Assembly (NCBI GenBank): GCA_951799425.1
Contig: OX637399.1
Location: 17,768,001 to 17,832,000 of the forward strand
DNA length: 64,000 bases
Direction of reading: 5' to 3'
DNA from: Ilex aquifolium
Taxonomy: Eukaryota > Streptophyta > Magnoliopsida > Aquifoliales > Aquifoliaceae
Shown here: in pieces, positions 1,276 to 63,450 of the stretch
Position numbering within the stretch: position 1 is the first letter of the stretch
Layout of the letters: every line of letters begins with the position of its first letter
The notes under the pieces: generated by a model
What the model was told of the DNA's origin: nothing
The model's database searches: none
What the model saw: only the letters and a program-made list of their open reading frames with translations
Made by a program: the position numbers and the translations under genes

Positions 1276-3442
1276 GAGGGCCAATAGTGCCCCTACACCA
1301 ATAAATGTCACAATCCACATAAAGAGCCAGTCAACGGGCTCGAAAGCATCGAGAGAAGCATTTCCTAAACAAGCCATAGAATGGGATGTCAAGATTTTGG
1401 AGAAACCCTAAGAGAGATTTAAAAGTGTGGGAAAAGTTTGAGACCTAGGGTTTTTTAGAGATTGACCACAAATTTCGGCAAAATCAACTCAATAACCAAC
1501 CCTAATCAAGAGAAGTGAATATCTAAGGCTTTGGTAAGTGTTTTGGAACTTGGACGAAGTTTGAGGGAGAGGAGAGAGTTTGGGAGCTTAAGATTGAGGG
1601 GAAATGTGAAGGGTTTTTCAAAAATTTTGAACTTAAAACCCTTGTTTTTAGCATTCTAGGCAATACCTTCTGGAAGGTCGATGAGAACCTTCTGGAAGGT
1701 TTTGCTTATTGCTGGGGAAAAAATATCCAGTAGGCAAAACCTTTCGAAAGGTTTTGCTCACTACTGAGGCAAAAATGTCCAATAGGCAAAACCTTCCGGA
1801 AGGTCGATGACAACCTTCCGTAAGGTTTATGACTAAACCTTCTGGAAGGTTTTGCCTTTGCTGCAAAACCATTCCTTTGCTCCAAAACTCACATCCAAAC
1901 CAACTCTTTTCAACTCCAAAATATTTTAACACCCTATCTATGATATCTAGCCTACCAAAAACTTGAACCACACATATGAACCACAATTGATTGATCATAC
2001 CTAAAGTCATTTCCGAAATTGCAACATGATTTAAAATTTTGATGTTTTCAAAATACAAGACATGGAGTTCTAATTTTAACTACCAAAATGAATACCCAAA
2101 ATATAAAGCATAGATTCAAATCACAAGGGCATTCCTAAAGCTATTCAAATATCTAAAGTTGAGCACTATTCCCTCATCCAACAAGTATAGGGCTGTATGA
2201 CAACAATGTTCAAATACCCGAACTAAAAACACATGATCATCAGCATGGCTTTAAATACTATTCCAGAGTATGCACATACACATTCATTTTCAAACTCGTG
2301 TGTGTGTGAATGGACATGTATTTTAAGCATTTACACAACGGAATTCACGTTCACTTTGGCTATTCAAATTAAGCTTCGATGCAATCTCACCAAGGGTGTC
2401 TCTCAACAATGAATCACACTCAAGTTATCCTGGCATGCTCTCCATGTGTATATGTGAGATGGAATCTTGTGCACAAAATGAAGTATGCTCACATATAATC
2501 CAAAAATGAAGTATGCATAATAATGAAACAACCTTGGCATAATCTCATGAGAGGGATGCTAGGGCATTGGATAGCAAAATCAACCTTTCTTTTTCTTTAG
2601 AAATATGCTATCCCCATGCTTTCTTTAGATCATTTAGCACTTTCAAGGGTTATAATGGGGCCTTGGGGTGATATTGAGGCAAATGAAATGAGGGATATAG
2701 GATCACAAAGAGGGTTGTTCCGAGTGAATGAATTTTATTTCAAAAACATCTCCATTTTCATGGGATTTTCAGTCAAACACCATCACCACACTCTTTGTTT
2801 CTTTTGTTTCTTTTGCTTAATATTTTCCTCTTTTTTTGTCATTTTTTTCTTCTTTTCACTCCTTTTTTCTCCTTTTCTTGGATTTTTCATTCTTTTCCGT
2901 TCAACTCTTTGAATTCAGCTTCATTCATCCCTTTTGTTGAGTTTTCGCCATATTTTCTTCTCTTTTATGATCACTCATACTCAGCTCTAGGAACAACCAA
3001 GGTGAGGTAGATTTTATCATTTTGCACTGGCTTGGTCAAATGTGTGGCATGGAAACGAATTTACAATTAAGGCTCAATCACGGCACTAGTGATAAAATTT
3101 TCACAAGAAAAAAGTGCTAAGGCTCAAAGCAAAACAAGGACGACCTAAGATCATTTCTAGATAGACATGGGAGAGCATTGTACATATCAAGACAAAGTCA
3201 ATCAACTACCCAATGCACCTAACCAAAACAAGCATGATGAGATTATTGAACAAATTTGAAATTTGAAGAATTGTTCCCTGAGTAAATGTAAGTTCCCTCC
3301 AACAAGGATTGACACTAAAGCTCTCATGGGTCCTTACTCATTTTCACTATTCATGTCAAGCACTAAAAAGTGAACTCGATCCGTAAATTGTCAAAATTAC
3401 ACATTCAAGGTGCGCTTAAGGTTGAGTTTAAAAGCAAACACA
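1276..3442 (-). other. Noncoding ORF2 leader and spacer of element A
   Basis: No coding sequence is visible. In element orientation this is the 3' part of the spacer between IN and ORF2, followed by the ORF2 leader with its palindrome cluster (1665-1850). About 1.2 kb (2160-3440) aligns by eye with the spacers of B, E and G: the GTGTGTGTGAA tract near 2300, the ATGCTCTCCATGTGTATATG block near 2440, and the T-rich pyrimidine tract near 2790-2890. The spacer continues at 12463-12977 beyond the Tekay-like insertion. Confidence 0.7.
1665..1850. repeat. Palindrome cluster CTTCCGGAAG upstream of ORF2 (A)
   Basis: Six or so copies of CCTTCCGGAAGG or one-step variants (CTTCTGGAAG, CTTTCGAAAG, CTTCCGTAAG) are spaced by AT-rich linkers containing TCGATGA and AAAACC/GGTTTT. 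The cluster lies about 400 bp upstream of the ORF2 start. The same palindrome type fills the LTR of this element at 21846-22112. Confidence 0.9.
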
Positions 3443-3447
3443 TATGT
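3443..3447. repeat. Target-site duplication TATGT, left
   Basis: TATGT directly precedes the TGTGACACC end of the Tekay-like element and is repeated at 12458-12462. Removing the element and one copy restores a sequence (ACACATATGTGATACTC) that matches the uninterrupted spacer of element E near 52790. Confidence 0.95.
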
Positions 3448-3736
3448 TGTGACACCCCATTTTCCGGGGGTCCTGTATTAACCGTTGACAACCCATCAAC
3501 CCGCGGAAATACCCGTGGATGTCGCTTAACCCGACACCACATCGATAACATCCTTAAACCGAGGTTATAATCCAAAATGAAAATTCGGTTCAGCATTTAT
3601 TCGATCCAACCCCAGTCCAACTCCCCATGAATCATACCCCATTAGGGTCCAATTTGATCATTGGAGGGAAGGAAAAACATAGCCCAAAGGCTTGGCAAAG
3701 AAAACAAAAATAAAAAAAATTCTGAGTTTTGGTGGG

Positions 3737-3848
3737 CGTACCGGTACGCCTACCGGTACACTGAACCCACTGGACATCGGCGTACCGGTACGCGTACCGG
3801 TACGCTCTGTCTTCTGTCTGTCTACGTACCGGTACGCATACCGGTACG
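3737..3848. repeat. Palindrome cluster GTACCGGTAC in Tekay-like 3' LTR
   Basis: Six copies of TACCGGTA, most within GTACCGGTAC, are separated by CG- or CTGAACCCACTGGA-type linkers. The ACTGGA linker also occurs in Athila-like LTRs of this window. Confidence 0.9.
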
Positions 3849-5188
3849 ATTTTGCCAGTTTTGCCTTTTTCCTTTGTTTTTCACTTCCAATCCATTCTAA
3901 TACCTTCCTAAACTCATCCAACACATGTATAATACGATTTTTCATATAATACACAACTTATACAAATTCCATTACATTTAATTCCATAATTTACACATCA
4001 AAATGGAATTTATACAAAAGTTTTTACAAAAACTCTAACTAAGGCCACAAGCCGGTCCCCTTCATTCTTGATGCTCTCCAAGTGAGCCATCCGCCGGTGC
4101 AAACCCCACACCTGAAATGTTTCCCGTATAGGGTGAGCACAACGCCCAGTAGAGATAAACCTATAGAGGTTACTCTTCCCCTAGATGCACATGCTCATGT
4201 AATCATCACATAAACATATAACTAAACATTTCTCATACTTATGCATTCTATGATGGAATGCAACAATGCTATGCCATGGAATGAAGTGACACTCACCCAT
4301 GCGTTTCAACCCGAGTCCTCACCGACTCACACAACACAATGCAACGCCAAAGTGTAATGCAACCCGTCTATTGACGAAAAATCATTCCAATGATCGTTAT
4401 GAAACCCGATCATTATTGGAATCTACCCATTGAATGGGTGTTTTTATACAACGAAATCTTGTGTCTTCCTGGGCAACGGATTTTGGAATTTCACCTCGGC
4501 TCCGTGGGCATGCCACTTTTCTGGAATTTCACCCTGGACAAGCGACTGAACCAAGTGGTTCCGGGTTTTTCACCCGAGGGAGTGTCTAGCCCTACTTGCT
4601 TTACCCGACACAAGCTTTTCTTATGCAATGCAACCGTGCAACTCAGTCGGATCTTTGATCCCGACTTTCCCGAGCTCACATACCAATCACCAAACAAGGT
4701 GTTGATTATATCCATGCATCTTCCACACACCAACACTCATGCAATAGTCCCATGAATGTGATGCCATGAAAATGCTCAAAATGCAATAACTACCACATGA
4801 GCAATGTATCCACATGTTCAACATGTCATAACTTCATGGCAATTATATCAAGTGCATATAACTACCAAACCTCATATTCATGTCAACATATCAAAGTCAT
4901 GTCTTGACAACATAGAGCATAATTTCAATTGTCTCTATACACATAAACATGTTATCACAATATCATTGAAATAACCTCATTTCATCAACCAAGACATTTA
5001 AACAAACACCTTAAAGGCATACAATATATTTACAAACAATTCATGCCCACATTCATCAAATCCTAAGGAGAATTCACACATGTAATTCTCTATAGTTAAT
5101 TTCAAGGTTGAATTTGTTATGAATACTGTCCAAACACACTTCCTCATCCCAAATTCATGGAACCATGCATATCTATATATAAACCTAC

Positions 5189-5193
<5 letters not shown>

Positions 5194-5238
<45 letters not shown>
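5194..5238. repeat. (TA)n microsatellite in Tekay-like 3' LTR
   Basis: Perfect or near-perfect TA dinucleotide run. Its length differs from the sister copy at 11664-11706, as expected for slippage. Confidence 0.95.
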
Positions 5239-5245
<7 letters not shown>

Positions 5246-5995
5246 CACTTATCTACATCTAGAACAAGAATAGACCAAAGTAGGAGAACCCCTACCTCTT
5301 AGGAGTGTAGAAAACCCCCAAAAACACCAAAACCACTCCAAAACTTTGAATCTCTCAAGATCGCCTCTTTAGATCTTCGGTGAAATTCCTTGTTTTTGGT
5401 GTCCACGCGTAGCCCTTGTCGCGTAGATCAACTTTGCCTCTTGATTCGACGGAATCCGAGCGACGGAAGTCCGGGAATCGACGGAGAAAACTTGAAGAAA
5501 TCAATTTCCTCTCTTTTCTCTCTTCTCTCTCTCTTGGCCGGCCAAACAAGAACACAAGGGGCAAAAATAATCTGATTTTCTAGATATTTACCCCTATTTA
5601 TAGTTTTAAATACTCGGCCTACGTCGTGCCACGTGTCCCTCGCTTAATCGGGTTCGATTTAGTCCCGAAACGATTTATTTGGTCCCGGTTTAAGTTCAAA
5701 TTAATTTTATTTAAACTTAAACTTAAACTTAATTTTAAGGAAATTTTATAAATCTCATTTATGGGGACGTTCGTGAGGTCATTCGCCACGCAGTCGCCTC
5801 GAACGACGTGCAAAATCCGACTATCTCGGAATTCGACGAAATTTGACAAGGTGACTCGTTTTCGCGATACGAATTCAACAGCGAACTCCGTTTCCTCATC
5901 CGAGGTCTAAAACATGAGTATTTTAAATACGCATTATAGTGGCAAATTATTATTTTGCCCTTTAAAAAAAAAATCCAAATTTCCCGGGTTTTACA

Positions 5996-9925: not shown

Positions 9926-10217
9926 AGCTGTGACACCCCATTTTCCGGGGGTCCTGTATTAACCGTTGACAACCCATCAACCCGCGGAAATACCCGTGGA
10001 TGTCGCTTAACCCGACACCACATCGATAACATCCTTAAACCGAGGTTATAATCCAAAATGAAAATTCGGTTCAGCATTTATTCGATCCAACCCCAGTCCA
10101 ACTCCCCATGAATCATACCCCATTAGGGTCCAATTTGATCATTGGAGGGAAGGAAAAACATAGCCCAAAGGCTTGGCAAAGAAAACAAAAATAAAAAAAA
10201 TTCTGAGTTTTGGTGGG

Positions 10218-10317
10218 CGTACCGGTACACTGAACCCACTGGACATCGGCGTACCGGTACGCGTACCGGTACGCTCTGTCTTCTGTCTGTCTACGTACCG
10301 GTACGCATACCGGTACG
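10218..10317. repeat. Palindrome cluster GTACCGGTAC in Tekay-like 5' LTR
   Basis: Five copies of TACCGGTA. One 12-bp unit fewer than the sister cluster at 3737-3848, with the flanks otherwise identical. Confidence 0.9.
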
Positions 10318-11658
10318 ATTTTGCCAGTTTTGCCTTTTTCCTTTGTTTTTCACTTCCAATCCATTCTAATACCTTCCTAAACTCATCCAACACATGTATA
10401 ATACGATTTTTCATATAATACACAACTTATACAAATTCCATTACATTTAATTCCATAATTTACACATCAAAATGGAATTTATACAAAAGTTTTTACAAAA
10501 ACTCTAACTAAGGCCACAAGCCGGTCCCCTTCATTCTTGATGCTCTCCAAGTGAGCCATCCGCCGGTGCAAACCCCACACCTGAAATGTTTCCCGTATAG
10601 GGTGAGCACAACGCCCAGTAGAGATAAACCTATAGAGGTTACTCTTCCCCTAGATGCACATGCTCATGTAATCATCACATAAACATATAACTAAACATTT
10701 CTCATACTTATGCATTCTATGATGGAATGCAACAATGCTATGCCATGGAATGAAGTGACACTCACCCATGCGTTTCAACCCGAGTCCTCACCGACTCACA
10801 CAACACAATGCAACGCCAAAGTGTAATGCAACCCGTCTATTGACGAAAAATCATTCCAATGATCGTTATGAAACCCGATCATTATTGGAATCTACCCATT
10901 GAATGGGTGTTTTTATACAACGAAATCTTGTGTCTTCCTGGGCAACGGATTTTGGAATTTCACCCCGGCTCCGTGGGCATGCCACTTTTCTGGAATTTCA
11001 CCCTGGACAAGCGACTGAACCAAGTGGTTCCGGGTTTTTCACCCGAGGGAGTGTCTAGCCCTACTTGCTTTACCCCGACACAAGCTTTTCTTATGCAATG
11101 CAACCGTGCAACTCAGTCGGATCTTTGATCCCGACTTTCCCGAGCTCACATACCAATCACCAAACAAGGTGTTGATTATATCCATGCATCTTCCACACAC
11201 CAACACTCATGCAATAGTCCCATGAATGTGATGCCATGAAAATGCTCAAAATGCAATAACTACCACATGAGCAATGTATCCACATGTTCAACATGTCATA
11301 ACTTCATGGCAATTATATCAAGTGCATATAACTACCAAACCTCATATTCATGTCAACATATCAAAGTCATGTCTTGACAACATAGAGCATAATTTCAATT
11401 GTCTCTATACACATAAACATGTTATCACAATATCATTGAAATAACCTCATTTCATCAACCAAGGCATTTAAACAAACACCTTAAAGGCATACAATATATT
11501 TACAAACAATTCATGCCCACATTCATCAAATCCTAAGGAGAATTCACACATGTAATTCTCTATAGTTAATTTCAAGGTTGAATTTGTTATGAATACTTTC
11601 CAAACACACTTCCTCATCCCAAATTCATGGAACCATGCATATCTATATATAAACCTAC

Positions 11659-11663
<5 letters not shown>

Positions 11664-11706
<43 letters not shown>
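11664..11706. repeat. (TA)n microsatellite in Tekay-like 5' LTR
   Basis: TA run homologous to 5194-5238 but shorter. Confidence 0.93.
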
Positions 11707-11713
<7 letters not shown>

Positions 11714-12457
11714 CACTTATCTACATCTAGAACAAGAATAGACCAAAGTAGGAGAACCCCTACCTCTTAGGAGTGTAGAAAACCCCCAAAAACACCAAAA
11801 CCACTCCAAAACTTTGAATCTCTCAAGATCGCCTCTTTAGATCTTCGGTGAAATTCCTTGTTTTTGGTGTCCACGCGTAGCCCTTGTCGCGTAGATCAAC
11901 TTTGCCTCTTGGTTCGACGGAATCCGAGCGACGGAAGTCCGGGAATCGACGGAGAAAACTTGAAGAAATCAATTTCCTCTCTTTTCTCTCTTCTCTCTCT
12001 CTTGGCCGGCCAAACAAGAACACAAGGGGCAAAAATAATCTGATTTTCTAGATATTTACCCCTATTTATAGTTTTAAATACTCGGCCTACGTCGTGCCAC
12101 GTGTCCCTCGCTTAATCGGGTTCGATTTAGTCCCGAAACTATTTATTTGGTCCCGGTTTAAGTTCAAATTAATTTTATTTAAACTTAAACTTAATTTTAA
12201 GGAAATTTTATAAATCTCATTTATGGGGACGTTCGTGAGGTCATTCGCCACGCAGTCGCCTCGAACGACGTGCAAAATCCGACTATCTCGGAATTCGACG
12301 AAATTTGACAAGGTGACTCGTTTTCGCGATACGAATTCAACAGCGAACTCCGTTTCCTCATCCGAGGTCTAAAACATGAGTATTTTAAATACGCATTATA
12401 GTGGCAAATTACTATTTTGCCCTTTAAAAAAAAAATCCAAATTTCCCGGGTTTTACA

Positions 12458-12462
12458 TATGT
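12458..12462. repeat. Target-site duplication TATGT, right
   Basis: Second copy of the duplication flanking the Tekay-like element; element A spacer resumes here. Confidence 0.95.
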
Positions 12463-13961: not shown

Positions 13962-13969
13962 GCACCTAC

Positions 13970-20560: not shown

Positions 20561-22358
20561 TGTTTGATTCATTCCGTCGTCCCTAATCTCTGAACATCAT
20601 CCGGTAATATGTGTATGGCTTATACGGATAGGTGAATGTCACTCTCCCTCGGAATGATGCAATAAATGGGGTAAATGGGTGTGTGAATGAAATGTGTGTG
20701 TGTATCAACAAAAGTGCTCCCCAGGCACAGAGAGACTTTTGAGTGTCGTGTTTTACTTGGAATTTGTATTCCAAAGTCGACTCCTCAGGGAAGGAAGATG
20801 AATTGTTTTGAAGGTGATTTTGGTGAAAAAGGAAAAGTGTAAAAATCTTTGAGTTAGAGTTTTGGTGAGTGATATTTGTGATAGAAAATGCAATGGAAAC
20901 AAGTGTTGGTTAATCCAAAGAGGTCATTCCATTGGGAATGCCAAATCAACTCAAGTCGTTCTTCCAATAGTGCCTAGACGTTCGATTGATTCGTAGGAAG
21001 CGTGGGACTAAAATGGAGGTGAGGATTCAAGCATACCCCGTGACAAGTCTACGGTGTATCAAGAACTCACAACCACGCCCACACTCAACCTAGTCAAACA
21101 AAACCATCGTACACTACAAGGAGGAATGAAAAAGAGTTGATTTAGCATACCCAAGAGGAATTCTCCCTTGAATTAGCCAACTTAAAGCTTAGCTACTCAT
21201 ATTTAATGCAAGAACATAAATGAAGTGAAGAGACATTGTGAAGAAATGAAGATTGGAACTTAAATTAATGAAATAAAAGTTAAACTATGAAGTAGTGCAT
21301 TGAATACCCATTTTAAAAGCTTGAAATGAAGAAAAAACAATACAACAATGACAAAATCTAAATGGTGTATCTAAACTCGCAATGTACTTGAAATAAATGA
21401 CATTAAAGACAATAAATGAAGCTTACAAGAGTATTGAAGAAGATTACAAGTGAAAATGGGTAAAGGAGATGCCAAAATCTAACTTCTCTCACTAAAAACT
21501 ATATTTTCCTCCTGGAGCTTCTCTCTCTATATCTTTACAATTCTGAATACTGTGAAGTAATGCTTGTATTTTCGTCCATGGAGGTCTTCTCTGGTGTGTG
21601 ATAGGCTTCCCATCAAGGGGGTTTGAGTTGATGGCTTGGACAGGCTATGACAAGCCTAGCCTACAACTTCCCTGGCTTGGATCTTCTCTCTCTTCCTCAT
21701 TAATGCATTGGCCTCCAAAGTCCAACTTGAAGTGAAGGGAGGCTTGTATGTGTGTAAGAGATGTCAGGGGACAAGTGGAAGAAGCAAAGGTGGGATCCCC
21801 AAGTGGCAGAGCTTGAGTTGCATGCTGTCTGGAATTTCTGGGCAAAACCTTCTGGAAGGTCGATATAAACCTTCCGGAAAGTTTGTGCAGGAACAGTTAA
21901 AATAGCAGTCCAGACAGCAAAACTTTCTGGAAGGTCGATGCAAACCTTTTGGAAGGTTTGGGCAGGGATAGTTAAAATAGCAGTCCAGTGAGCTAAACCT
22001 TCTAGAATGTTCATTTCAGTAGACAAAACATTCTGAAAGGTTTTGGCAATGAATAGGCATACCAAGTGCAAACCTTCCGGAAGGTTTATGGCCAAACATT
22101 TCGGAAGGTTTTCATCCAACATGCCTATTCTTGGTTTCATCACCTTCCAATCCTTCCTTTAAGCTATCCCCTCATCTTCATTGACTTGAAAAACTTCAAT
22201 GGGGGCTTAACTCAAACCATTTGCAATTCTTCACCTACATTCACACAAGATTTCATTAAAACATAGATTAAACACATTTATCCTCAATTTCACAACAAAA
22301 TCAAGTATAAAAAGGGCATAACAAGCAGCACAAACTATGCAATATTTTGTGCTAATCA
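20561..22358 (-). repeat. 5' LTR of element A
   Basis: 1798-bp LTR, TGTTTGATTC...GTGCTAATCA on the plus strand. U3 is at the high-coordinate end and carries the CTTCCGGAAG palindrome cluster. Small ORFs within it are not supported. Confidence 0.9.
21846..22112. repeat. Palindrome cluster CTTCCGGAAG in LTR of A
   Basis: About eight copies of CCTTCCGGAAGG and variants (CTTCTGGAAG, CTTTTGGAAG, CATTCTGAAAG, TTTCGGAAG) are spread over 270 bp of U3. Linkers include GGTCGATATAAACC and AAAATAGCAGTCCAG. Same type as the internal cluster 1665-1850. Confidence 0.9.
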
Positions 22359-36529: not shown

Positions 36530-36846
36530 AACGTTCGAACGGCCACATTGAACTGTAGCAGACTCAACTGCTAAGAGAAGGCGTGTTGCAGTTAGGAAAG
36601 AAGACGGTGAAGCTCTAAGGCACTTGAGTGTCACGTTCGAACGCTAACTCACGTTCGAATGTGCACTTGAGTTAATTGAAGACCAGACTACTGCATAGAG
36701 TGTGGAACTGAACTTCACAGAAGACCAACAGATCACTCGAGTGAGAGGGTCAGAGCATATCTGGCGTTCGAACGGAAGACAACGTTCGAACGACCATAAA
36801 GCAAAAACAGAAACAACGTTCGAACGCCAACTCACGTTTGAACATT
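36530..36846. repeat. Palindrome cluster CGTTCGAACG in LTR1 of D
   Basis: About seven copies of CGTTCGAACG or variants, linked by GCCAACTCA or similar, ending about 90 bp before the TATA box. Confidence 0.92.
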
Positions 36847-36938
36847 CTCCACAGACTGGCAGCAGAGTAGTTGGTTTTTCACTTGGACTTGGGCGGCATA
36901 CAGTATTCCTTCTCCCCATCTTGTCTCCTCCTCTTGCC

Positions 36939-36944
36939 TATAAA
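36939..36944 (+). promoter_or_regulatory. TATA box, LTR1 of D
   Basis: TATAAA within TTGCCTATAAACACTCCC; the conserved copy in LTR2 is at 43341-43346. Confidence 0.75.
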
Positions 36945-38236: not shown

Positions 38237-38253
38237 TCGCGCCGTTGCCGGGA
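38237..38253 (+). other. Primer-binding site of D, first copy
   Basis: TCGCGCCGTTGCCGGGA, tRNA-Asp type, six bases after the LTR end. Confidence 0.82.
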
Positions 38254-39238: not shown

Positions 39239-39540
39239 ACGTTCGAACGCCAAGTGACGTTCGAACGCCAAGTGACGTTCGAACGTCAGCTGCTTACAGT
39301 ACTCAGCCTCTGATAAAGCTTCTGATGAAACTTAAAAGTACTGGGAGCTCAGTTCGTTCGAACGCCAATAGACCGTTCGAACGAGATTAACGTTCGAACG
39401 CCAATAGAACGTTCAAACGAAGAGAACCTACAATACTTTGGCCTCTGACAGAACTCAAAAGTACTGAGAGCTCACCACGTTCGAACGATCTATTTAAAAT
39501 CCTTCTAGACACATTCGAACGTTACCAACGTTCGAACGTC
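39239..39540. repeat. Palindrome cluster CGTTCGAACG upstream of ORF2 (D, copy 1)
   Basis: About ten copies of CGTTCGAACG or one-step variants in 300 bp, ending 12 bp before a TATA box. Same palindrome as the D LTRs. Confidence 0.92.
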
Positions 39541-42897: not shown

Positions 42898-43246
42898 AAC
42901 GTTCGAACGCCAACTCACGTTCGAACGGCCACATTGAACTGTAGCAGACTCAACTGCTAAGAGAAGACGTGTTGTAGTTAGGAAAGAAGACGGTGAAGCT
43001 CTGAGGCACTTGAGTGTCACGTTCGAATGTGCACTTGAGTTGATTGAAGACCAGACTACTGCACAGAGTGTGGAACTGAACTTCACAGAAGACTAACAGA
43101 TCACTCGAGTGAGAGGGTCAAAGCATATCTGGCATTCGAACGCCCCTAGTGCAAAGATAGAAGAAACGTTCGAACGAAAGACAATGTTCGAACAACCATA
43201 AAGCAAAAACAGAAACAACGTTCGAACGCCAACTCATGTTCGAACG
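42898..43246. repeat. Palindrome cluster CGTTCGAACG in LTR2 of D
   Basis: About eight copies including decayed CATTCGAACG and TGTTCGAACA. One unit present here (near 42915) is missing in LTR1 and one LTR1 unit (near 36640) is missing here. Confidence 0.92.
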
Positions 43247-44294: not shown

Positions 44295-46153
44295 TGCTTG
44301 GTGAAAAACGTTGTTGTTTCCTAACCCCTAAAAACCATCCCTTAGAATGTATTGTATATGGTGTATGTGTGAAGGGAGTGTCACTCTCCCTTGAGATGAT
44401 GTCAAATGAAAGGGCAACAGAATGGTGGATGAATGAAATGAAATGAAATGAGTGTGTGAAAAAAAGTGCTCCCCAAGCGCAAGGAGTCTTTTGCTTGTCG
44501 TGTTTTACTTGGAATGAGTATTCCAAGGTCGTCTCCTTAGGGAAGGAAAGTTCAAGTGTGTGAAGGTGATTTTGTGAAAAAGAGAAAAGTGTAAAATCTT
44601 GTAGTTGGTTTTGGTGAATTTTGTTCTTAATGAAAATGCAAGAAAAACAAGTGTTGGCTAATCCGAAGGATTCACTCCAATGGGAATCCCAAATCAACTC
44701 AAAGCCTTCCTCGAATAGAGCTTAGATGAACGATTGATTCGTGGGAAGCTAGGGATGAAATGGAGGTGAGGATCCAAGCATAACCCGTGACCAGGCCTAC
44801 GGGATGTCAAAGACTCACAACCGCATCCACTCTCAACCCAGTCAAACCGAACCATCGTACTCTGAGAGGAGGAATGAAAATGAGCTGAAGTGACACACCC
44901 AAGAGGAGTTCTCCCTTGGATTAACCAACTTAAAAAATCTAGCTACTCATGAAAGCAAGAAAGAAATGCATAATGTAAAGAGACATAATTGAAATGGAGC
45001 ATGAAACTTAAATTAATGCAAGGAATCTTAAACTATGAAGAAAAATATTCAAAACCCATTTTAAAGCTTGAAAAATGAAGAACTTGAAAGCATTAATGGT
45101 GAAATCTAAAATGCAAGAATAAACTTGAAATATACTTGAAATAAATGACATTAAATGAAATGAATGAAGCTTACAAGAGTATTCAAGAGATTACAAGTGA
45201 AAATGGGCAAAGGAAATGCAAAAACATAAATTTCTATTATACTATTCATCTTCTTCTTCCTAGGAACTATCTAAGCTTAGGTAGCCACCCTTGAATCTTG
45301 TGTGAATGCTGAATATATGGAGTGTGAGAGCCTTGCAATTTGGTCCATGGTGGTCCCCCTAGGTGTGTGCAGGCCTCCCATCAATGGGAGGTGAGTTGAT
45401 GGCCCTTGACAGGCTAAGACAAGCTTAGTCTGCAACTATCATGGCTGCCCCCTTCTATCCCATCCTCCTTAAATGCCAAGCCTCCAAAGTCTTCAAATTG
45501 TGTAAGGGAGGCATGGTTGTAGGTAGAACATGTTGGGATAGGTGTGGGAGAAGTGTAGGTGGGACCCCCAAGCAAGTGGGATATGATTTGCAGGTGTCTG
45601 GGATGTTCTGGGCATTCTGGGCATGGCGTACCGGTATGCGTACCGGTACGGTTTGGCTACTGGAGTTCGTCGTACCAGTACGCGTACCGGTACAGTTTGC
45701 CTGCTCTAGACTAGTTTTCATAGAATTGTCATAACGTTTTATCCAACCGTCCGATTGAGCTGAAATTTGACACAATATAGAAGACATCCAGATCTACAAC
45801 TTTCATGTTGTGTACTGTTTCAGATTCGAAGTGGATCATGGTCACAAAAGAGGAAAACCGATGTACTACAACCAAATGGTGTGGGTGCTGGTGCCTTTGT
45901 TACCAAGCACCAATACCTCCTTGATTTCTTTCACTTTTAAGCCACCAAATCCTCATGTAATGTGTCAATGCCTTCACCACACATCCACACTTAGTTGCAA
46001 GGTTCTAAAATCCATCATTTAAGCTATAATTACCTGCAACATCAAAAATTCAACATTGTTCATAAATTTGGCTAACTCTAAGTAATTAAATGCAAAGTTA
46101 AGTTAAAATGCATGAAATGAGGCCGTCAAATATACAATATTTTGTGCTCATCA
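44295..46153 (-). mobile_element. Solo LTR inserted in LTR2 of D
   Basis: 1859 bp, TGCTTGGTG...GTGCTCATCA on the plus strand, perfect duplication CCGAT, no internal sequence. Athila-like LTR of the same family as 13970-15809. Palindrome cluster at 45626-45693. ORFs inside are not supported. Confidence 0.93.
45626..45693. repeat. Palindrome cluster GTACCGGTAC in solo LTR 44295-46153
   Basis: GTACCGGTAT-GC-GTACCGGTAC, linker GGCTACTGGAGTTCG, then GTACCAGTAC-GC-GTACCGGTAC. One copy shows CG-to-CA decay at the centre. Confidence 0.9.
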
Positions 46154-47496: not shown

Positions 47497-47781
47497 AACG
47501 TTCGAACGTCAGCTGCTTACAATACTCAGCCTCTGATAAAGCTTCTGATGAAACTTAAAAGTACTGGGAGCTCAGTCTGTTTGAACGCCAATAGACCATT
47601 CGAACGAGATTAACGTTCGAACGCCAATAGAACGTTCAAACGAAGAGAACCTACAGTACTTTGGCCTCTGACAGAACTCAAATGTACTGAGAGCTCACCA
47701 CGTTCGAACGACAAACCACGTTCGAGCGATCTATTTAAAATCCTTCTAGACACATTCGAACGTTACCAACGTTCGAACGTC
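47497..47781. repeat. Palindrome cluster CGTTCGAACG upstream of ORF2 (D, copy 2)
   Basis: About eight copies. Compared with 39239-39540 it lacks two tandem units at the left and has one extra unit near 47715. Confidence 0.9.
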
Positions 47782-47792
47782 ACGACTCAGGC

Positions 47793-49437: not shown

Positions 49438-51292
49438 TGATTGATTGGAAAAACGTTGTTGTTTCCTAACCGCTAGACATCACCCTCACCCTCAATGTGT
49501 GTATGTGGCTTATAGTGATGGGGGAGTGTCACTCTCCCTCCGGATAATGCAAGAGATATAGGAGCAACAACAAATGTGAATGGAAATGTGGAATGAACAA
49601 AATGTATGGAATGAAATGTGGAATGGAATGCGAGTGAACAAAAGTGCTCCCCAATCATAAGGAGTCTCTTGTTGTCGGTGTTTTACTTGGAAAAGTATTC
49701 CAAGGTCGTCTCCTCAGGGAAGGAAAGGGAGTTTTGTGAAAGTGATTTTGCAAAAAGAGAAAAGAAAGTGTAAAATCTTGTATTTGTGTTTTGTTGAGTT
49801 TTGTTCAAAATGAAAATGCAAGAAAGCAAGTGTTGGCTAATCCAAGAGGTTCATTCCAATGGGAATATCAAGCCAACTCAAAGCCTTCCTCCAATGGTGC
49901 CTAGAAGTACGATTGATTCATGGGAAGCTAGGGATAAAATGGTGAGTATCCAAGCATAAACCGTGACTAGGCCTACGGAATATCAAAGACTCACCAATTT
50001 ATCCACCCTCAACCCAATCAAACCGAGCCAACATACACCGAGAGAAGGAATGAAAGAGAGTTGGAATGGAATCCCCAAATGGAATTCACCCTTGGACTAA
50101 CCAACTTAAAAGCTAGCTACTTATACATAAATGAAAGACAAGCATAATGTAAATAGACATATAAAGGAAATGGAGATTAAAGCATGAAACTTAACTTGAA
50201 GCAATAAATCTAAAACTATGAAGAAAAACATTCAATACCCATTTTAAGAAAAGCTTGAAGTGGAAAGACTCATACAACAATGGTGAAAGCTAGAACATGT
50301 AACTAAAGTTGCAATGTACTTGAAAGGAATGGGATTAAAGACAATAAATTAAACTTAGAAGATCCTTACAAGAGATTAAAAAAGATTTCTACAACTTGAA
50401 TGGAGAAGAAAATGCAAAAACGTCACTATTCATCATCTTCCTCCTTGGAGCTCCAAAAAACTAATCCTAAGCTTAGGTAGCCAACCCTTTACATTGTGTG
50501 TTGAATGTTGAATATATTGAGTGTGGAGACTTGCCAAAACGTCCAAGAGGCTCCCCCCTAGCTGTGTGAACGAGCTCCCATCAAGAGAGGGCTGAATGGA
50601 TGGCTTTGACAGGCTAGGAGATCATAGCCTGGGCAGCTCACTTCCCCTCATTCCTCCTTTAATGCATTGGCCTTTAAAGTCTTCCACTTGAGTGTAGGAG
50701 GCCTGTAAATGTGTAAGGAAATGTTGGGATAGGCGTGGGAGAAGTGTAGGTGGGACCCCCAAGCCTCAAAGTTGAGTTACAGGCTGTTTTCGCGACCAGA
50801 AGGTCCGGAGTACCGGTACTGGGTACCGGTACTGTTTTTCTGCACCGGACCACCTTCGGTAGAATCGGCATAACTCTTGATCTAACCGTTGGATTGGGCT
50901 GAAATTTTGACACCAAACAGAAGACACCCATATCTACAACTTTTATGTTTTGAAATTTTCCAAATTCTGAGTAGGTCATGGTCAAAATGGAGGAATTCCG
51001 AGGCAGTACTTCCAATTGTTGCTGCAGCTGGTGCCCTTGTTCCCAAGCACCAATGCCTTCTTGATTTCTTCACTTTTAAGCCTCCAATTCTTCATGTATT
51101 GTGTCCATGCCTTCACCACACATCCAACATAGTTGCAATGTCCTAACATACATGATTTAAGCAATAAAAACTTGCAACATCAAAATATCAACATTATTCA
51201 TAATTTCGGCTAACTCTAAGTACTTAAATGCAAAAGTTGAGTTAAAATGCATGTAATGAGCCCTTCAAATATGCAATATTATGTGCTCATCA
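49438..51292 (-). repeat. 3' LTR of element E
   Basis: 1855 bp, TGATTGATTGG...GTGCTCATCA on the plus strand. Palindrome pair at 50810-50833. ORFs inside (for example near 50674-51164) are conserved only because the LTR is. Confidence 0.93.
50810..50833. repeat. Palindrome pair GTACCGGTAC in 3' LTR of E
   Basis: Two copies of GTACCGGTAC with a TGG spacer, preceded by GGTCCGGA. Confidence 0.92.
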
Positions 51293-53262: not shown

Positions 53263-53316
53263 AGTACCGGTGCTGGGTACCGGTACCATTTGGTACCGGT
53301 ACCGAGTACCGGTACT
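53263..53316. repeat. Internal palindrome cluster of element E
   Basis: GTACCGGTGC-TGG-GTACCGGTAC, linker CATTT, GTACCGGTAC-CGA-GTACCGGTAC. It has the same TGG-spaced tandem form as the LTRs of E, although no ORF2 follows. Confidence 0.9.
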
Positions 53317-54393: not shown

Positions 54394-54396
54394 AAA

Positions 54397-56251
54397 TGAT
54401 TGATTGAAAAAACGTTGCTGTTTCCTAACCGCTAAACATCACCCTTACCCTCAATGTGTGTATGTGGCTTATAGCGATGGGGGAGTGTCATTCTCCCTCC
54501 GGATAATGCAAGAGATATAGGAGCAACAACAAATGTGAATGGAAATGTGGAATGAACAAAATGTATGGAATGAAATGTGGAATGGAATGCGAGTGAACAA
54601 AAGTGCTCCCCAATCGTAAGGAGTCTCTTGTTGTCGGTGTTTTACTTGGAAAAGTATTCCAAGGTCGTCTCCTCAGGGAAGGAAAGGGAGTTTTGTGAAA
54701 GTGATTTTGCAAAAAGAGAAAAGAAAGTGTAAAATCTTGTATTTGTGTTTTGTTGAGTTTTGTTCAAAATGAAAATGCAAGAAAACAAGTGTTGGCTAAT
54801 CCAAGAGGTTCATTCCAATGGGAATATCAAGCCAACTCAAAGCCTTCCTCCAATGGTGCCTAGAAGTACGATTGATTCATGGGAAGCTAGGGATAAAATA
54901 GTGAGTATCCAAGCATAAACCGTGACTAGGCCTACGGAATATCAAAGACTCACCAATTTATCCACCCTCAACCCAATCAAACCGAGCCAACATACACCGA
55001 GAAAAGGAATGAAAGAGAGTTGGAATGGAATCCCCAAATGGAATTCACCCTTGGACTAACCAACTTAAAAGCTAGCTACTTATGCATAAATGAAAGACAA
55101 GCATACTGTAAATAGACATATAAAGGAAATGGAGATTAAAGCATGAAACTTAACTTGAAGCAATAAATCTAAAACTATGAAGAAAAACATTCAATACCCA
55201 TTTTAAGAAAAGCTTGAAGTGGAAAGACTCATACAACAATGGTGAAAGCTAGAACATGTAACTAAAGTTGCAATGTACTTGAAAGGAATGGGATTAAAGA
55301 CAATAAATTAAACTTAGAAGATCCTTACAAGAGATTAAAAAAGATTTCTACAACTTGAATGGAGAAGAAAATGCAAAAACGTCACTATTCATCATCTTCC
55401 TCCTTGGAGCTCCAAAAAACTAATCCTAAGCTTAGGTAGCCAACCCTTTACATTGTGTGTTGAATGTTGAATATATTGAGTGTGGAGACTTGCCAAAACG
55501 TCCAAGAGGCTCCCCCCTAGCTGTGTGAACGAGCTCCCATCAAGAAAGGGCTGAATGGATGGTTTTGACAGGCTAGGAGATCATAGCCTGGGCAGCTCAC
55601 TTCCCCTCATTCCTCCTTTAATGCATTGGCCTTTAAAGTCTTCCACTTGAGTGTAGGAGGCCTGTAAATGTGTAAGGAAATGTTGGGATAGGCGTGGGAG
55701 AAGTGTAGGTGGGACCCCCAAGCCTCAAAGTTGAGTTACAGGCTGTTTTCGCGACCAGAAGGTCCGGAGTACCGGTACTGGGTACCGGTACTGTTTTTCT
55801 GCACCGGACCACCTTCGGTAGAATCGGCATAACTCTTGATCTAACCGTTGGATTGGGCTGAAATTTTGATACCAAACAGAAGACACCCATATCTACAACT
55901 TTTATGTTTTAAAATTTTCCAAATTCTGAGTAGGTCATGGTCAAAATGGAGGAATTACGAGGCAGTACTTCCAATTGTTGCTGCAGCTGGTGCCCTTGTT
56001 CCCAAGCACCAATGCCTTCTTGATTTCTTCACTTTTAAGCCTCCAATTCTTCATGTATTGTGTCCATGCTTTCACCACACATCCAACATAGTTGCAATGT
56101 CCTAACATACATGATTTAAGCAATAAAAACTTGCAACATCAAAATATCAACATTATTCATAATTTCGGCTAACTCTAAGTACTTAAATGCAAAAGTTGAG
56201 TTAAAATGCAAGTAATGAGCCCTTCAAATATGCAATATTATGTGCTCATCA
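54397..56251 (-). repeat. 5' LTR of element E
   Basis: 1855 bp, about 99% identical to the 3' LTR and of the same length. Confidence 0.93.
55769..55792. repeat. Palindrome pair GTACCGGTAC in 5' LTR of E
   Basis: Identical to 50810-50833. Confidence 0.92.
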
Positions 56252-56340: not shown

Positions 56341-57768
56341 GCTTCTACCATTAATTCATATAGCACATAGTACATAACATGTAACAATTTGAGCACATAA
56401 CATGAAATGCACAATGGATGCAATGGCCTAGACCCATGCCCATCAAGCCCTAGGTAAATCGTATATTTATGCTCTGATACCAAGCTGTGACGCCCCAAAA
56501 ACCGGGGGTCATTTATAAGTCCGTTGATCATCCATCAACCCGCAGAAATACCCGTGGATGTCGCTTAACCCGACACCACGTCGATAGCATCCCCTTAATC
56601 GAGATTATAGCCCACAAGTGTAACCTGTGTTCCATTGTTCATTGGATCCAACCAAGGTCCAATATACCATGATTTATACTCCATTATGGTCCATTTACAT
56701 CTTTGGAGGGAAGGAAAAACATAGGCGGAAAACATGGCAAAACAGTTTTAAAATTTGATATTTTTGGAAAGAGTACCGGTACTGCATACCGGTACGGTTT
56801 GCCCACTGGAAAAAGCATACCGGTACGCTGTACTGGTACTGTATGCCTACTGGAAAAAGTGTACCGGTACTGTGTACCGGTACGGTTTGCCCACTGGACA
56901 GCAGCGTACCGGTACTGTCTGTCCATTTTTGCCTATTTCAATTGTTTTGGATTTCAGATCCATTCCAAACCCTTCCACATCCATCCAATACATGTTTAAT
57001 ACCATTTTCCACACAAAACTTGGTACTCACAAGTTCTATTACATTCACTGACATAAATTTACATGCCAAAACTAAGTTTTCATAAATACTTTTACAAAAA
57101 CTCCAAGTAAAGCCACATTTCGACTTTCTTCACCCTTGAGGCTCCAAATGAGAGCCGTCCACCGGCGTGTATCCCACACCTGAAATGTTTTCCCGTATAG
57201 GGTGAGCTACGCTCAATAGAGTATCCCCTACAGAGGCTACTCCCCACCCTAGATGCATATGAAATGCTCACAATGCAACCGATCAACACTTTATAACATT
57301 CCACTCAAGAATATGTATTCCATGTAGGAATTCACCATGCTATGCCATGAAATGAGATGAGACTCACTCACGCATATCAACCCGAGCCCTTCCCGACTCC
57401 TCAACACATGCAAGTACCCATGTGAATGACTCTGTCATCTATGTTACACATCAAATGACATTTACAAATCTAGGGTCTTTCTTGGGGTGGATATTTATGG
57501 ACTTACACCAATGGCACCCAACCGACACGAAATTCATGGACTTCCACCAACGGTTCCGCGTACACCGACACACTTTATGGGCTCTTATACCAACGGAGTG
57601 CGTATCCAATCACCGGGTCTCTCACCCGAGGGATAGTCTAGCCCTTCTTGCTACCCCAACCCAATTTTCATGCAACCGCGCGACTTAGTCGGATCATCGA
57701 CCCAACTTTCCCAAGTCCACCTGTCATCCACCAAGTGAGGTGATGACGACAACCATGCACACACACCC
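56341..57768 (-). mobile_element. Tekay-like fragment: leader, PBS and truncated 5' LTR
   Basis: 56341-56470 matches the leader of the Tekay-like element. PBS GCTCTGATACCA is at 56471-56482. The LTR starts TGTGACGCC at 56486 and runs about 1.28 kb with diverged but collinear sequence (palindrome cluster 56772-56917, TTTCCCGTATAGGGTGAGC block, CACCCGAGGGATAGTCTAGCCC block). It is cut at about 57768. No gene. Confidence 0.85.
56772..56917. repeat. Palindrome cluster GTACCGGTAC in Tekay-like fragment
   Basis: Seven copies, several as tandem pairs, separated by GTTTGCCCACTGGAA-type linkers. One copy reads GTACTGGTAC. Confidence 0.9.
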
Positions 57769-58473
57769 TCACTCTCTCTACAATGCTGAATAATGTCCAA
57801 TGTTGCTTGCATTTTAGTCCATGGAGGTTCCCCTAGGTATGTGACAAGCCTCCCATCCATAGGAGGCTGAGTTGATGGCTTTGGGCAGGCTAGGACAGGC
57901 CTAGCCTGCACTTCCCAAGCTTTCCTCTTCTCTCTCCTCCTCATTAATGCTGGAGCCTCCAAAGTCCAAGCCTAAGTGTGAGGAGGCATCTCTGTGTGTA
58001 AGGGATGTCAGAGGACAAGTGGGAGACTCATAGGTGGGACCCCCAAGGGACAGAACTTGAGTTGCAGGCTTCAGGCATTTTTCAGCAAAACCTACCGGTT
58101 GGTCGATGGCCAAACCTACTGGTAGGTTTTACTCCAGTAGCCAAAACCTTTCGAAAGGTTTGCGGTAGAACCAACTCCAGTAGACAAAACCTATCAGTAG
58201 TTTTATGAACAAACCTACCGGTAGGTTTTTTCTTGTTTTGCTCAAATCTTGGTCTTTTCAGCTTCTATGCCATAGTCAAGCATCCCATTCATCGCCATTG
58301 ACTTTAAGCACTACGATGGGGGTTTAACTCATGTCATTTTCAACTCTTTGCCTGCAAACATACCGAAACCTCATTAAATGTAGAAATATTGCAATTCCTC
58401 CCATATTCACCACAAAAACAAGTCTAAAAATGGTGCAAATGTGCAAATAATGTGCAATATTTTGTACTAATCA
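57769..58473 (-). repeat. LTR fragment of Athila-like element F
   Basis: About 700 bp of U3 ending TGTACTAATCA on the plus strand, next to PPT CACCCCCCAACTT. Closest to LTRs A and C. The U5 side is missing. Confidence 0.8.
58090..58228. repeat. Palindrome cluster CTACCGGTAG in LTR F
   Basis: CTACCGGTTG, CTACTGGTAG, CTTTCGAAAG, CTATCAGTAG and CTACCGGTAG with the same linkers as LTR C. One copy is of the A type. Confidence 0.88.
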
Positions 58474-61381: not shown

Positions 61382-63393
61382 CAATTGGTCCTTTGTTCGC
61401 ATGTACAGTTTCCTTTATTTTAATTATGTCATGTTTTTATTTCATGTCACTTACTTGTTGTTGCTATATAACTTTGTTTTCTTTTGAATCAAGATCTTGG
61501 TGTGTTCGTCAAAAGCTCGAATGCGAGGTGTTTTCTTACCCTTCTCATCTTTTATTGTCTTTCATTGCATATGCTATCTTTTTGTTGCATTGAGGACACT
61601 GCATGATTCTAGTTGGGGGGTGAGGTGCACCACTTGTTAGATGCACCAGATTTTTTTTTTGTGTACTCCAATTTTGTGTTGCATTGGTACAAAATATGTG
61701 AGAAATTTTGAAAATTTTTGATGAAAAATACCTTTAAGTTGATCTGTATTCCCTTATGAAGCGAGTATGAACTGGATGACATGTTGGTTGTTGTTGTGAA
61801 CCTTGTGCACATGAGCTTACTATAGAAATGGATCCTATGCATAAATATCACATATGGATTGATTTTCGAACTCATCTGTATGTGTTTTCTAAACTTGTAA
61901 TTTCAGTGATTTACGGGTTGGATTCATGTTTTAAGCTTGACATAAGTAGTGGAGATGAGTAAGGACCCATGAGAGTTTTAGTGCCAAACCTTTTTGGAGG
62001 GAACTTACGTCTACTCAAAGAACAATTTTTGATATCAAGTTTGTTCAATAGTCTCATTATGCTTGCTTTGGTTAGTTGCATTTGGTTAGTAGACTGATTT
62101 GTCTTGATCATGCAATGCTCTCCCCATGTGGACCTGGAAGTGATCTTAGGCCATTTTTGAAAACTTTGAGCCTTAGCCTTTTTCTTGGAAAAATTTATCC
62201 CTAGTGCCATGATTGAGCCTTACTTGAATTCATTTCTATGCCATACATTTGACCAAGCCAATGAAAAATGATAAATACTTACCTTACCTTGGTTGTTCCT
62301 AGAGCTAAATTTGAGTGATCGTTAAAGCGAAGGAAGTATGGTGTGGAAATTCAAACAAAAGGGATGGATGTTGTGGAGTTTAAATGTTGAATAAAAAAGA
62401 ATGAAAACTCAAGAAAAGGAAGAGAAAGGGGTGAAAGAAGAAAGAACGATCATTGAAAAAAGAGATGATGTTAAGAAGAATAAAGAAAATAAACAAGGGG
62501 TATGGTGATGGTGAGAAAATCAAAATCCCATGAAAAAGGAAGTGTTTTTCCAACATTAAAGTCTCTCACTCGGAACAACCCTCTTTGTTGTCCTTTTTCC
62601 TTCATTTCTTTTACCTAGATATCACCCCAGGGCCCCATTACAACCCTTAAAGCCCTAAGTGATCTAGAGAAGCATGGGAGAAGCATGTTCGTAAAAATAT
62701 TGATAAGTTTAGTCTTACTACCTAATGCACTAACATCCTATTCATGAGACTATGCCAAGGTTGCCTCATTTTCACATATGAACTTCATTTTTGGATTACA
62801 TGTGAGCACTTTGTTTTGAATACAAGATTCTAGATCACATGTACACATGGAGTGCATACCAGTATAACGTGAGTGCGTTTATTGTTTAAGGGTGTCCCTT
62901 GGTGAGTTTTGCATTGAAACTGAGTTTGTCTAGCCTTTCGAATGTGAATTCTGTTTCGTAAATGCCCAAATTACTTGTTTAAATGCACATGCACACGAGT
63001 TGAAAATTAATTTGTGGGTGCATATTTCTGACTAGCATTGAGGACTATGGTTTTGCTCATGTACATCTAGTTCATTCAATTGAGAAATTTGTTAAAAAGC
63101 TCCATGCTTGCAAGAATGAGGGAATATTTCTCAAGTTATTGATATTGGCATATTTTAGGAATGCTTTGATTCTGAATCTTGATGAGGTGTTTTCTGGATG
63201 TTCATTTTGGATAGTCAATTGTTGGAATTCATTTCGTGTATTTTTGAATGTATCAAAGTCCTAAATCGCATTGCAATTTCATTAATAAATTGGACATGAT
63301 GGTTAAGAATGTGCTGGGAGGTATAGAGGATGTCTAGAAGTAAATAGGATTGAAGCAGGATAGCCAGCAAGAAGTTCAGGAAACTAAGGCTTA
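61382..63393 (+). other. Spacer of element G
   Basis: 2.0 kb noncoding, collinear with the spacers of A, B and E. It contains TGCATTGAGGACACTGCATG, the internal purine tract, and GGAACAACCCTCTTTGTTGTCC near 62570. No supportable gene. Confidence 0.75.
61611..61632 (+). other. Internal polypurine tract (candidate central PPT), element G
   Basis: AGTTGGGGGGTGAGGTGCACC, 230 bp after the pol stop. Confidence 0.6.
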
Positions 63394-63450
63394 GCGTACC
63401 GGTACGCGTACCGGTACACTGACCCTACTAGAGTGCTTCGTACCGGTACG
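63394..63450. repeat. Palindrome cluster GTACCGGTAC upstream of ORF2 (G)
   Basis: GTACCGGTAC-GC-GTACCGGTAC, linker CCTACTAGAGTGCTTC, GTACCGGTAC. Same GC-spaced form and linker as LTR H and the solo LTRs at 13970 and 44295. 263 bp before the ORF2 ATG. Confidence 0.9.

Follow-up and report, generated by a model that had tools for sequence, protein, structure and literature searches.

The closest described counterparts of the arrays considered here are the RM boxes of Sireviruses, arrayed short palindromes that mostly have a CGG-CCG core and, according to the available portions of the source, lie in the LTR upstream of a TATA box, recur in the linker before the env-like 3' ORF and share one motif per element at both places (Bousios et al., 2010, PMC2829016). 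The same portions raise the idea of an internal promoter, give the carriers as Ty1/copia elements and call the motif Sirevirus-specific (PMC2829016). In maize Sireviruses the cis-region of the LTR holds rapidly evolving palindrome arrays that are small-RNA hotspots (PMC5311732, PMC10760457), in a description that, in the excerpts available, covers the LTR only. In the VANC/VANDAL system, as far as the accessible text goes, short target motifs form tandem arrays in non-coding parts of DNA transposons, the motifs of one array change together and related elements differ; VANC carries DUF1985/DUF287, demethylation has been shown, and the quoted VANDAL21 motif is non-palindromic (Hosaka et al., 2017, PMC5735166). 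Sunflower Athila elements possess a 3' ORF with Transposase_32 (PF20167; PMC11728184), and one Athila clade has a methylation drop in the LTR (PMC12844716). The available parts of these two sources describe no palindrome arrays; the PF20167 3' ORF is held in common with the elements discussed below, and a link to the arrays is suggestive only.

In a 64,000-nucleotide stretch of the Ilex aquifolium genome (contig OX637399.1, positions 17,768,001 to 17,832,000), here called the window, LTR arrays are likewise accompanied by arrays of the same motif before a 3' ORF (ORF2), a position that the available excerpts on maize do not mention. In contrast to the Sireviruses, however, the carriers are Ty3/gypsy elements of two lineages, site types are common to these lineages, several types lack CCGG, and cassettes have been replaced on close backbones. 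As in VANDAL elements, non-coding tandem target arrays differ between related elements, but here the elements are Ty3/gypsy, the sites are palindromic, and DUF1985/DUF287 was not found in seven ORF2 proteins. The architecture is known from Sireviruses; what is new is the Ty3/gypsy carriers, the strict homotypy and the cassette switching. Among the matches listed in the open-access literature, as judged by titles and abstract openings, such arrays were reported for Sireviruses and not for the LTRs of Athila elements or chromoviruses. A design called Sirevirus-specific is hereby extended to another retrotransposon superfamily. For the question of how LTR retrotransposons find and change activators under host silencing, this system offers discrete, countable cis-site types present thousands of times, clear-cut changes of type between otherwise similar backbones, and two arrays per element as a built-in internal control.

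The clusters of CG-centred 10-bp palindromes from which an earlier note on this DNA set out are real and are found where the note placed them: the window holds 66 perfect copies, whereas 100 dinucleotide shuffles average 7.36 and never exceed 16, and GTACCGGTAC and CGTTCGAACG occur 30 and 21 times where no single CG-centred palindrome exceeded two copies in the same shuffles. Over a contiguous 284-kb block (the window plus L005-L026) exact counts are 142 for type G (GTACCGGTAC), 61 for type D (CGTTCGAACG), 31 for type A (CTTCCGGAAG) and 10 for type B (CTACCGGTAG); leaving aside the AT repeats ATATATATAT and TATATATATA, other palindromes reach at most 13 (GTACGCGTAC 13, AAAATATTTT 12, TTTTATAAAA 10). 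Type B falls below the best background palindrome and is therefore distinguished by clustering and decayed copies rather than by exact count. All four types that had been named are present, but four is an undercount, as ORF2 loci elsewhere in the genome carry CGTCCGGACG, CGCCTAGGCG, CAGCGCTG and TAGCGCTA. A CCGG centre is present in types G, B and A and in CGTCCGGACG, and is missing from CGTTCGAACG, CAGCGCTG, TAGCGCTA and the TA-centred CGCCTAGGCG.

Table 1. Palindrome arrays, LTRs and ORF2 matches in the window (window coordinates).
Feature	Position	Strand	Remarks
ORF2 of element A, Transposase_32 (PF20167)	605..1126	-	E 2.1e-12
Internal type A array, element A	1667..1848	-	CTTCCGGAAG and decayed copies; upstream of ORF2
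3' LTR of Tekay-like chromovirus	3448..5995	-	type G array 3738-3847
5' LTR of the chromovirus with 3' LTR 3448..5995	9929..12458	-	type G array 10219-10316; Met-type PBS adjoining
5' LTR of element A	20737..22358	-	array 21849-22083
Internal type B array	28780..28866	+	upstream of ORF2 at 29206
ORF2, PF20167	29206..29943	+	E 1.1e-10, slightly under curated cut-off
Type G array	32427..32522	+	its LTR 95% identical to Tekay-like LTR P5 of the 284-kb block; not element B's own LTR
Type B array of LTR C	34641..34760	-	adjoins ORF2 35294-36283; without assignment by LTR homology
ORF2, PF20167	35294..36283	-	acidic C-terminal tail
First LTR of element D	36346..38237	+	end inferred from PBS of second copy; type D array 36532-36826
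Internal type D array, element D	39240..39538	+	TATAAAAG starts 13 bp past last site
ORF2 of element D, PF20167	39758..40864	+	one interrupting stop
Type D array, second LTR of element D	42900..43246	+	LTR broken by solo LTR ~44296-46154
Type G array in inserted Athila-like solo LTR	45628..45693	-	
Internal type D array	47499..47779	+	second truncated internal region
3' LTR of element E	49439..51292	-	type G sites 50810-50832
Internal type G array, element E	53264..53315	-	element without ORF2 match
5' LTR of element E	54394..56251	-	type G sites 55769-55791; Athila-type PBS adjoining
Type G array in Tekay-like LTR	56773..56915	-	
Type B array in Athila-like LTR	58092..58224	-	
Internal type G array	63396..63449	+	upstream of an ORF2 that begins near 63494 and continues into L006

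The arrays beginning at 3738, 10219, 32427 and 56773 are not Athila arrays but lie in LTRs of Tekay-like chromoviruses (Table 1). Between 59210 and 61378 an RNaseH/RT ORF precedes the integrase ORF, the order characteristic of Ty3/gypsy elements, and the chromovirus integrase has an SH3 of the Tf2-1 type. Mixing of site types within an array is absent in the 284-kb block, where all 46 arrays with at least two exact sites are of a single type and all 185 adjacent exact pairs are of the same type; 5000 label shuffles reach at most 101 of 185. Genome-wide, exact sites separated by gaps of at most 30 bp form 14,412 D-D and 10,361 A-A pairs, with no G-D and no A-G pair, and GTACCGGTACNNGTACCGGTAC occurs 4,014 times compared with once for its reversed control.

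In several elements the uniformity extends to both of their arrays. Within the window, agreement in type between LTR and internal array holds, as had been claimed, for elements A, D and E, in the last case including the TGG spacer, and the partner LTR of element A, found beyond the window in L005 and 92.8% identical, is likewise type A. The array at 47497 is not an independent case, since it forms part of another, truncated internal region that follows the interrupted second LTR of element D. The internal cluster lies upstream of ORF2 in elements A and D; element E has no ORF2 match, and its internal array is situated 5' of the region that it has in common with the other elements. Six of ten ORF2 loci from elsewhere in the genome also show agreement, with site types outside the earlier set. 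Across 21 ORF2 loci agreement within elements exceeds that of shuffled pairs (diagonal 40; of 20,000 permutations, averaging 16.3, only 3 did as well); for the nine loci from elsewhere taken by themselves it is weaker (1,402 of 50,000 permutations with 8-mers, 386 of 50,000 with 10-mers). Of 22 loci, 11 agree, one shares half-sites, and 10 are not evaluable or apparently mismatched. A true mismatch is possible at R101896, in which a B internal array stands beside an LTR whose sites are CAGCGCTG. Naive adjacency did not serve as a count of matches, since nested insertions set foreign LTRs beside ORF2 (B_39206, L032). Part of the matching is plain copying, as five elements have an internal array that can be recognised as copied from the one in the LTR (B222, 129 of 147 bp; G73, 74 of 82; A, 50 of 59; L028, 49 of 55; L031, 36 of 36, inverted, the internal and downstream modules being exact reverse complements over this length). 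The backbones of L027, L028 and L035 are 78-88% identical, yet these loci differ in site type in both LTR and internal arrays, which supports a fast turnover of types in which the two arrays switch together.

Two routes of change are evident. The first is replacement of an array together with its promoter, the flanks on either side being up to 88-90% identical: LTR P12 (type G) and the LTR at R150031 (type D) have flanks 88.5% and 89.5% identical around a non-homologous array and promoter, and P1 (type G) and P6 (type A) are 88% identical before the array and 77% where likeness resumes after it. The second is paired symmetric substitution. In aligned A and B arrays most sites differ on both arms while the spacers stay alike; 62 A/B sites are symmetric and seven hybrid (six of the seven from the two LTRs of one element), and for G/B sites the corresponding figures are 174 and three. 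Types G, A and D are common to both lineages, the LTR arrays numbering 20 G, three D and two A in Tekay-like and seven G, five A, five D and four B in Athila-like LTRs, and no ORF2 (PF20167) match was found in the Tekay-like elements of the 284-kb block. Related elements seem to swap entire arrays, a pattern that suggests control by a limited number of putative binding proteins. Transfer of cassettes between lineages, as judged from shared spacers, is unsupported overall: with palindromes masked, and with R269467 and unassigned arrays taken as Athila-like, same-type arrays are no more alike than different-type arrays (median 15 versus 16, p = 0.995), and high scores come from single pairs, those that P6 forms with A and B arrays of Athila.

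A TATA box lies behind a minority of arrays. TATAWA lies 13-94 bp downstream of six of seven type D arrays, including all five D LTR arrays (TATAAA at about 36939 in the first LTR of element D), and, in L029 and L031, close downstream of the internal array. Among 38 representative LTR and internal arrays it occurs within 100 bp downstream in 10 and, as a control, upstream in five, so that the overall excess is small; apart from type D it is found behind four of nine Tekay-like G arrays, and behind none of five A, eight B or nine Athila-like or unassigned G arrays.

On balance we lean towards the explanation that the promoter-proximal palindromes are sites for dimeric, probably host-supplied factors, a reading drawn from sequence patterns. 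Sequence-specific proteins would bind the palindromes as dimers and activate a cassette ordered as array, core promoter and transcript start; one cassette would drive the LTR transcript, and a second, before ORF2, would act as an internal promoter in many Athila-like elements. Each cassette would hold one site type since a single protein has to recognise every site in it, and the occurrence of the same types in Tekay-like elements without ORF2 suggests that the proteins most likely act in trans, coming from the host or being shared among elements. A change of factor would proceed by whole-cassette replacement or symmetric substitution, after which LTR and internal cassettes would be re-matched, in part through copying from one to the other. 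The earlier proposal of a dimeric factor controlling both the LTR and an internal promoter is thereby partly sustained, by symmetric sites that change on both arms, by the paired arrays, and by the TATA boxes behind D and two internal arrays.

What did not fare well is the companion idea that site types track a factor encoded by each element's own ORF2. As an alternative, ORF2 would be a dimeric, methylation-sensitive protein that recognises its own family's arrays and opposes silencing in the manner of VANC in VANDAL elements, sites and factor co-evolving. Selection on ORF2 is purifying (dN/dS of 0.24-0.40 among five related loci); the database relative P0001 combines a basic N-terminus with an acidic tail; weak coiled-coil-like matches near residues 303-358 (E up to 10) overlap a low-confidence predicted helix at 315-350; and the joint switches of L027, L028 and L035 are what co-evolution would produce. 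However, types G, A and D also occur in Tekay-like LTRs without an ORF2 match and whole cassettes switch on similar backbones, and a factor encoded by each element's own ORF2 is therefore not the most economical reading; element E, moreover, has matched arrays but no ORF2 match. Nor does the protein resemble VANC: in seven ORF2 proteins, one of them from the database, only PF20167 scored above cut-off, and neither DUF1985 nor any other recognised DNA-binding domain turned up. Of 8000 candidates scored in a homolog search, four proteins were kept. A PDB sequence search yielded nothing credible (best E 0.024), and the AlphaFold2 model (pLDDT 44.5, pTM 0.20) is too poor for judgement. We consider this alternative unlikely.

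Less probable still is that the arrays act as RNA hairpins feeding siRNA production or the RNA life cycle, as proposed for the small-RNA hotspots of maize Sireviruses in the available parts of those reports (PMC5311732, PMC10760457). All six arrays tested fold far better than shuffles (z -4.0 to -7.7), and base pairing is also compatible with symmetric substitution, but such folding is expected of any palindrome array, pairing needs no identical sequence in LTR and internal arrays, and TATA boxes lie downstream of the D arrays and of the L029 and L031 internal arrays. Least probable are minisatellite-like arrays without selected function, grown and homogenised by slippage and conversion and matched by LTR/internal copying, for although some arrays are tandem repeats with a period of 12-75 bp and copies are clear in five elements, homogenisation leaves unexplained the perfect palindromes, the both-arm substitutions, the recurrence of a few types in two lineages and the D arrays before TATA boxes.

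A more tentative extension is that the genome's Ty3/gypsy elements are sorted into a few mutually exclusive regulatory compatibility groups, each with one site type and one trans-acting factor, between which unrelated lineages might move by cassette exchange, the internal promoter of the 3' ORF being re-matched at each switch. Such a factor might come from the host, or be encoded by an element and serve other lineages too; its identity and origin are directly testable with a few short baits, and such groups, if real, would be the transposon counterpart of a transcription-factor specificity code. Heat-shock element promoters of the ONSEN type are built from nTTCnnGAAn units, and heat-shock elements were rejected as a general answer, for only type A CTTCCGGAAG fits, whereas GTACCGGTAC, CTACCGGTAG and CGTTCGAACG depart from this pattern. 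Scanning the window for Rfam families and tRNAs gave no matches. CpG transitions have hit the centre in 33 of 86 one-mismatch variants, a pattern of decay which suggests that many copies are methylated. A second motif, CYACTGGA, accompanies the palindromes, all 13 of its occurrences in the window falling inside arrays, eight on one strand and five on the other.

The clusters of palindromes described in the earlier note are real, and the observation is extended here; the interpretation offered in that note is supported in part. The window (G000:C9:17768001-17832000) was analysed with 220 kb of flanking DNA from a genome of 800 Mb, that of a plant to judge from the elements. It is a nest of Ty3/gypsy elements of two sets: in one, the primer sites are of Athila type and a 3' ORF (ORF2) matches PF20167 (Transposase_32, T32); in the other, the primer sites are of Met type and the integrase is chromovirus-like. 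We call these Athila-like and Tekay-like elements, respectively. CG-centred 10-bp palindromes number 66 in the window vs 7.4 in shuffles. Across the 284-kb block there are 142 exact copies of type G (GTACCGGTAC), 61 of type D (CGTTCGAACG), 31 of type A (CTTCCGGAAG) and 10 of type B (CTACCGGTAG); G, D and A exceed all other palindromes bar two AT repeats, and B is distinctive through its clustering only, not by exact count. A single site type occupies each block array with at least two exact sites (46/46). Across the genome, exact sites no more than 30 bp apart form 14,412 D-D pairs (control 0), 10,361 A-A pairs (control 1), and no G-D or A-G pairs, and G pairs with a two-bp gap number 4,014 vs 1 for the reversed control; the genome-wide counts cover these five pairings. 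A second, non-palindromic motif, CYACTGGA/TCCAGTRG, is interspersed with the palindromes of several array types in both lineages; 13/13 window copies fall within arrays, and the motif also adjoins the internal array of L035, an ORF2 locus from elsewhere in the genome.

Agreement between the arrays of the LTR and those before ORF2 was surveyed in 22 T32 loci, 12 from the block and 10 fetched by position, the latter drawn from 150 matches listed of 6,661 candidates; the choice of these ten rested on ORF length, score and chromosome and preceded any view of their DNA. Site type agrees in 11/22. In the block these are elements A, D, P11, G73 (downstream LTR inferred from position) and B222, in which the internal sites have decayed and agreement is visible in a 147-bp alignment; elsewhere they are L027, L028, L029, L031 (one exact site per place), L035 (one exact 8-mer per place) and L036 (one mismatch in the LTR copies). 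The downstream array lies within an LTR in L027, L028, L034, L035 and L036, as shown by alignment to an LTR ending at an Athila-type primer site, and the LTR around it is inferred from position in L029 and L031. The types agree in element E too, but without an ORF2 match. In L034 only half-sites are common to both places, and the other ten of the 22 loci are not countable or apparently mismatched. B_39206 and L032 adjoin foreign LTRs; the LTR beside B_39206 is 95% identical to a Tekay-like LTR, and L032 diverges at 2355 from its 94.6% identical twin L031. The internal region of C_45294 is gone where D starts, D2_57999 represents a truncated stretch of D, neither x_116324 nor P10_175361 has an exact internal array, an LTR-like insert occupies the place of the internal array in x_211241, and L030 offers a weak internal candidate only. 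L033, whose PF20167 frame is open over 378 aa, has no array and no repeated palindrome in 4.3 kb; not all ORF2-bearing loci use the system. The B internal array of x_101896 stands beside an LTR with three CAGCGCTG sites, which may be a real mismatch. Shared palindromic 8-mers gave a diagonal of 40 vs 16.3 in permutations, reached in 3/20,000, over 21 loci with no exclusions (L036 came later), the block elements being in part the source of the hypothesis; the nine outside loci alone give a weaker result (1,402/50,000 permutations for 8-mers, 386/50,000 for 10-mers).

Copying accounts for part of this agreement, since the LTR and internal arrays can be aligned with each other over 55-147 bp in A, B222, G73 and L028, and over 36/36 bp, inverted, in L031. 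In D, E, P11, L027, L029, L034, L035 and L036 short pieces at most are shared (10-49 aligned bp), and copying is not visible in these array alignments. The L031 alignment joins two-palindrome 36-bp modules, one before ORF2 and the second 3.4 kb downstream, which are exact reverse complements, decayed site included; their sequence points to inverted copying, or conversion, in the recent past.

Site type also switches between related elements. L027 (CGCCTAGGCG) and L028 (CAGCGCTG) are 88% identical across ORF2 and on to the LTR array, yet differ in type in both arrays; L035, with a backbone 78-79% identical, has TAGCGCTA at both places. Identity of the P12 (G) and R150031 (D) LTRs is 88.5% up to a point 13-21 bp ahead of the array and 89.5% past the promoter, the stretch in between showing little if any homology, and P1 (G) and P6 (A) are 88% identical up to the array and 77% behind it. 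P4E (G) and the R209796 LTR (A), and likewise P10 (A) and R180596 (B), are alignable throughout (78% and 80%). The A and B arrays are homologous, both arms having changed together at most sites, and one site of the R180596 B array is still A-like.

The carriers speak against a link of site type to a factor encoded by each element's own ORF2. Among arrays with at least two sites, at least one of them exact, Tekay-like LTRs carry 20 of type G, 3 D and 2 A; Athila-like LTRs 7 G, 5 A, 5 D and 4 B; internal regions 3 D, 2 B, 2 G and 1 A; and 4 G and 1 B have no carrier assignment. These are array counts, with family copies tallied separately, and not independent events; the carrier is the best LTR match within 150 bp, R264649, between matches of both lineages, could shift from Athila-like to Tekay-like, and a ninth internal array, R223598, was left out for want of an exact site. 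Because the Tekay-like elements of the block have no T32 match, it is improbable that each element supplies the factor through its own ORF2. On the best reading, the palindromes would be promoter-proximal sites for putative dimeric trans-acting factors, probably common to both lineages. TATAWA follows the three Tekay-like D arrays at 53, 53 and 54 bp, both tested Athila D LTR arrays at 94 bp, and the internal D array at 13 bp; TATAAAAG lies inside the P11 internal array region, and the internal arrays of L029 and L031 are followed by TATAAATA and TATATATA. Among 38 representative arrays TATAWA occurs within 100 bp downstream in 10/38 vs 5/38 upstream, and never within 100 bp downstream of A, B or Athila-like G arrays; the promoter reading is therefore good for D and a few others, and tentative for the rest.

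In published accounts, Sireviruses carry palindromic boxes, termed Sirevirus-specific, in the LTR, where they lie upstream of a TATA box, and again ahead of the env-like gene (PMC2829016), VANC targets of VANDAL elements evolve through tandem arrays (PMC5735166), a sunflower Athila has a T32 ORF (PMC11728184), and one Athila clade shows low LTR methylation (PMC12844716). The open-access literature searched yielded no description of arrays of this kind from the LTRs of Athila or chromovirus elements.

Among one-mismatch variants near exact copies, 33/86 carry a C-to-T or G-to-A change in the central CG, a pattern that fits the decay of methylated sites and is silent on binding. PF20167 is the sole ORF2 domain above the curated cut-off, accompanied by weak coiled-coil-like matches; a relative has a basic N-terminus and an acidic tail, dN/dS is 0.24-0.40 (five related loci), and the structure model is unusable (pLDDT 44.5). 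ORF2 could be a putative regulator.

An extra ORF resembling carlavirus nucleic-acid-binding proteins, of which the literature searched gave no account, lies between integrase and ORF2 in P11 and at R115552. D and P11, which are related, are the two elements that combine this ORF with a typed array before ORF2, both of type D, and such a zinc-finger gene adds one more candidate for the factor.

Coordinates of elements, motifs and ORFs (R coordinates are window coordinates plus 10,000)
Feature	Coordinates	Detail
P11	R188526-204684	
G73	R73494	
B222	R222131	
L031 modules	sense 901 and 4346 regions of the locus	
CYACTGGA	window 3767, 10236, 14460, 45657, 48962, 56803, 56847, 56891	
TCCAGTRG	window 1726, 34680, 34723, 58133, 58176	
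Carlavirus-like ORF	window 46832-47251 (+)	PF05515 E 1.7e-9, PF01623 E 2e-5
Carlavirus-like ORF	window 38557-38976 (+)	located by tblastn
Carlavirus-like ORF	R1965, R115552, R194199/R196215, R207865	located by tblastn
Point of comparison of D with P11	window about 38284	

Element D has no gag-pol. The part missing from it, as found in P11, starts with GTAAAAAG and ends with TTTGTAG, and by these ends D looks like the product of reverse transcription of a spliced subgenomic RNA that held leader, carlavirus-like ORF and ORF2.
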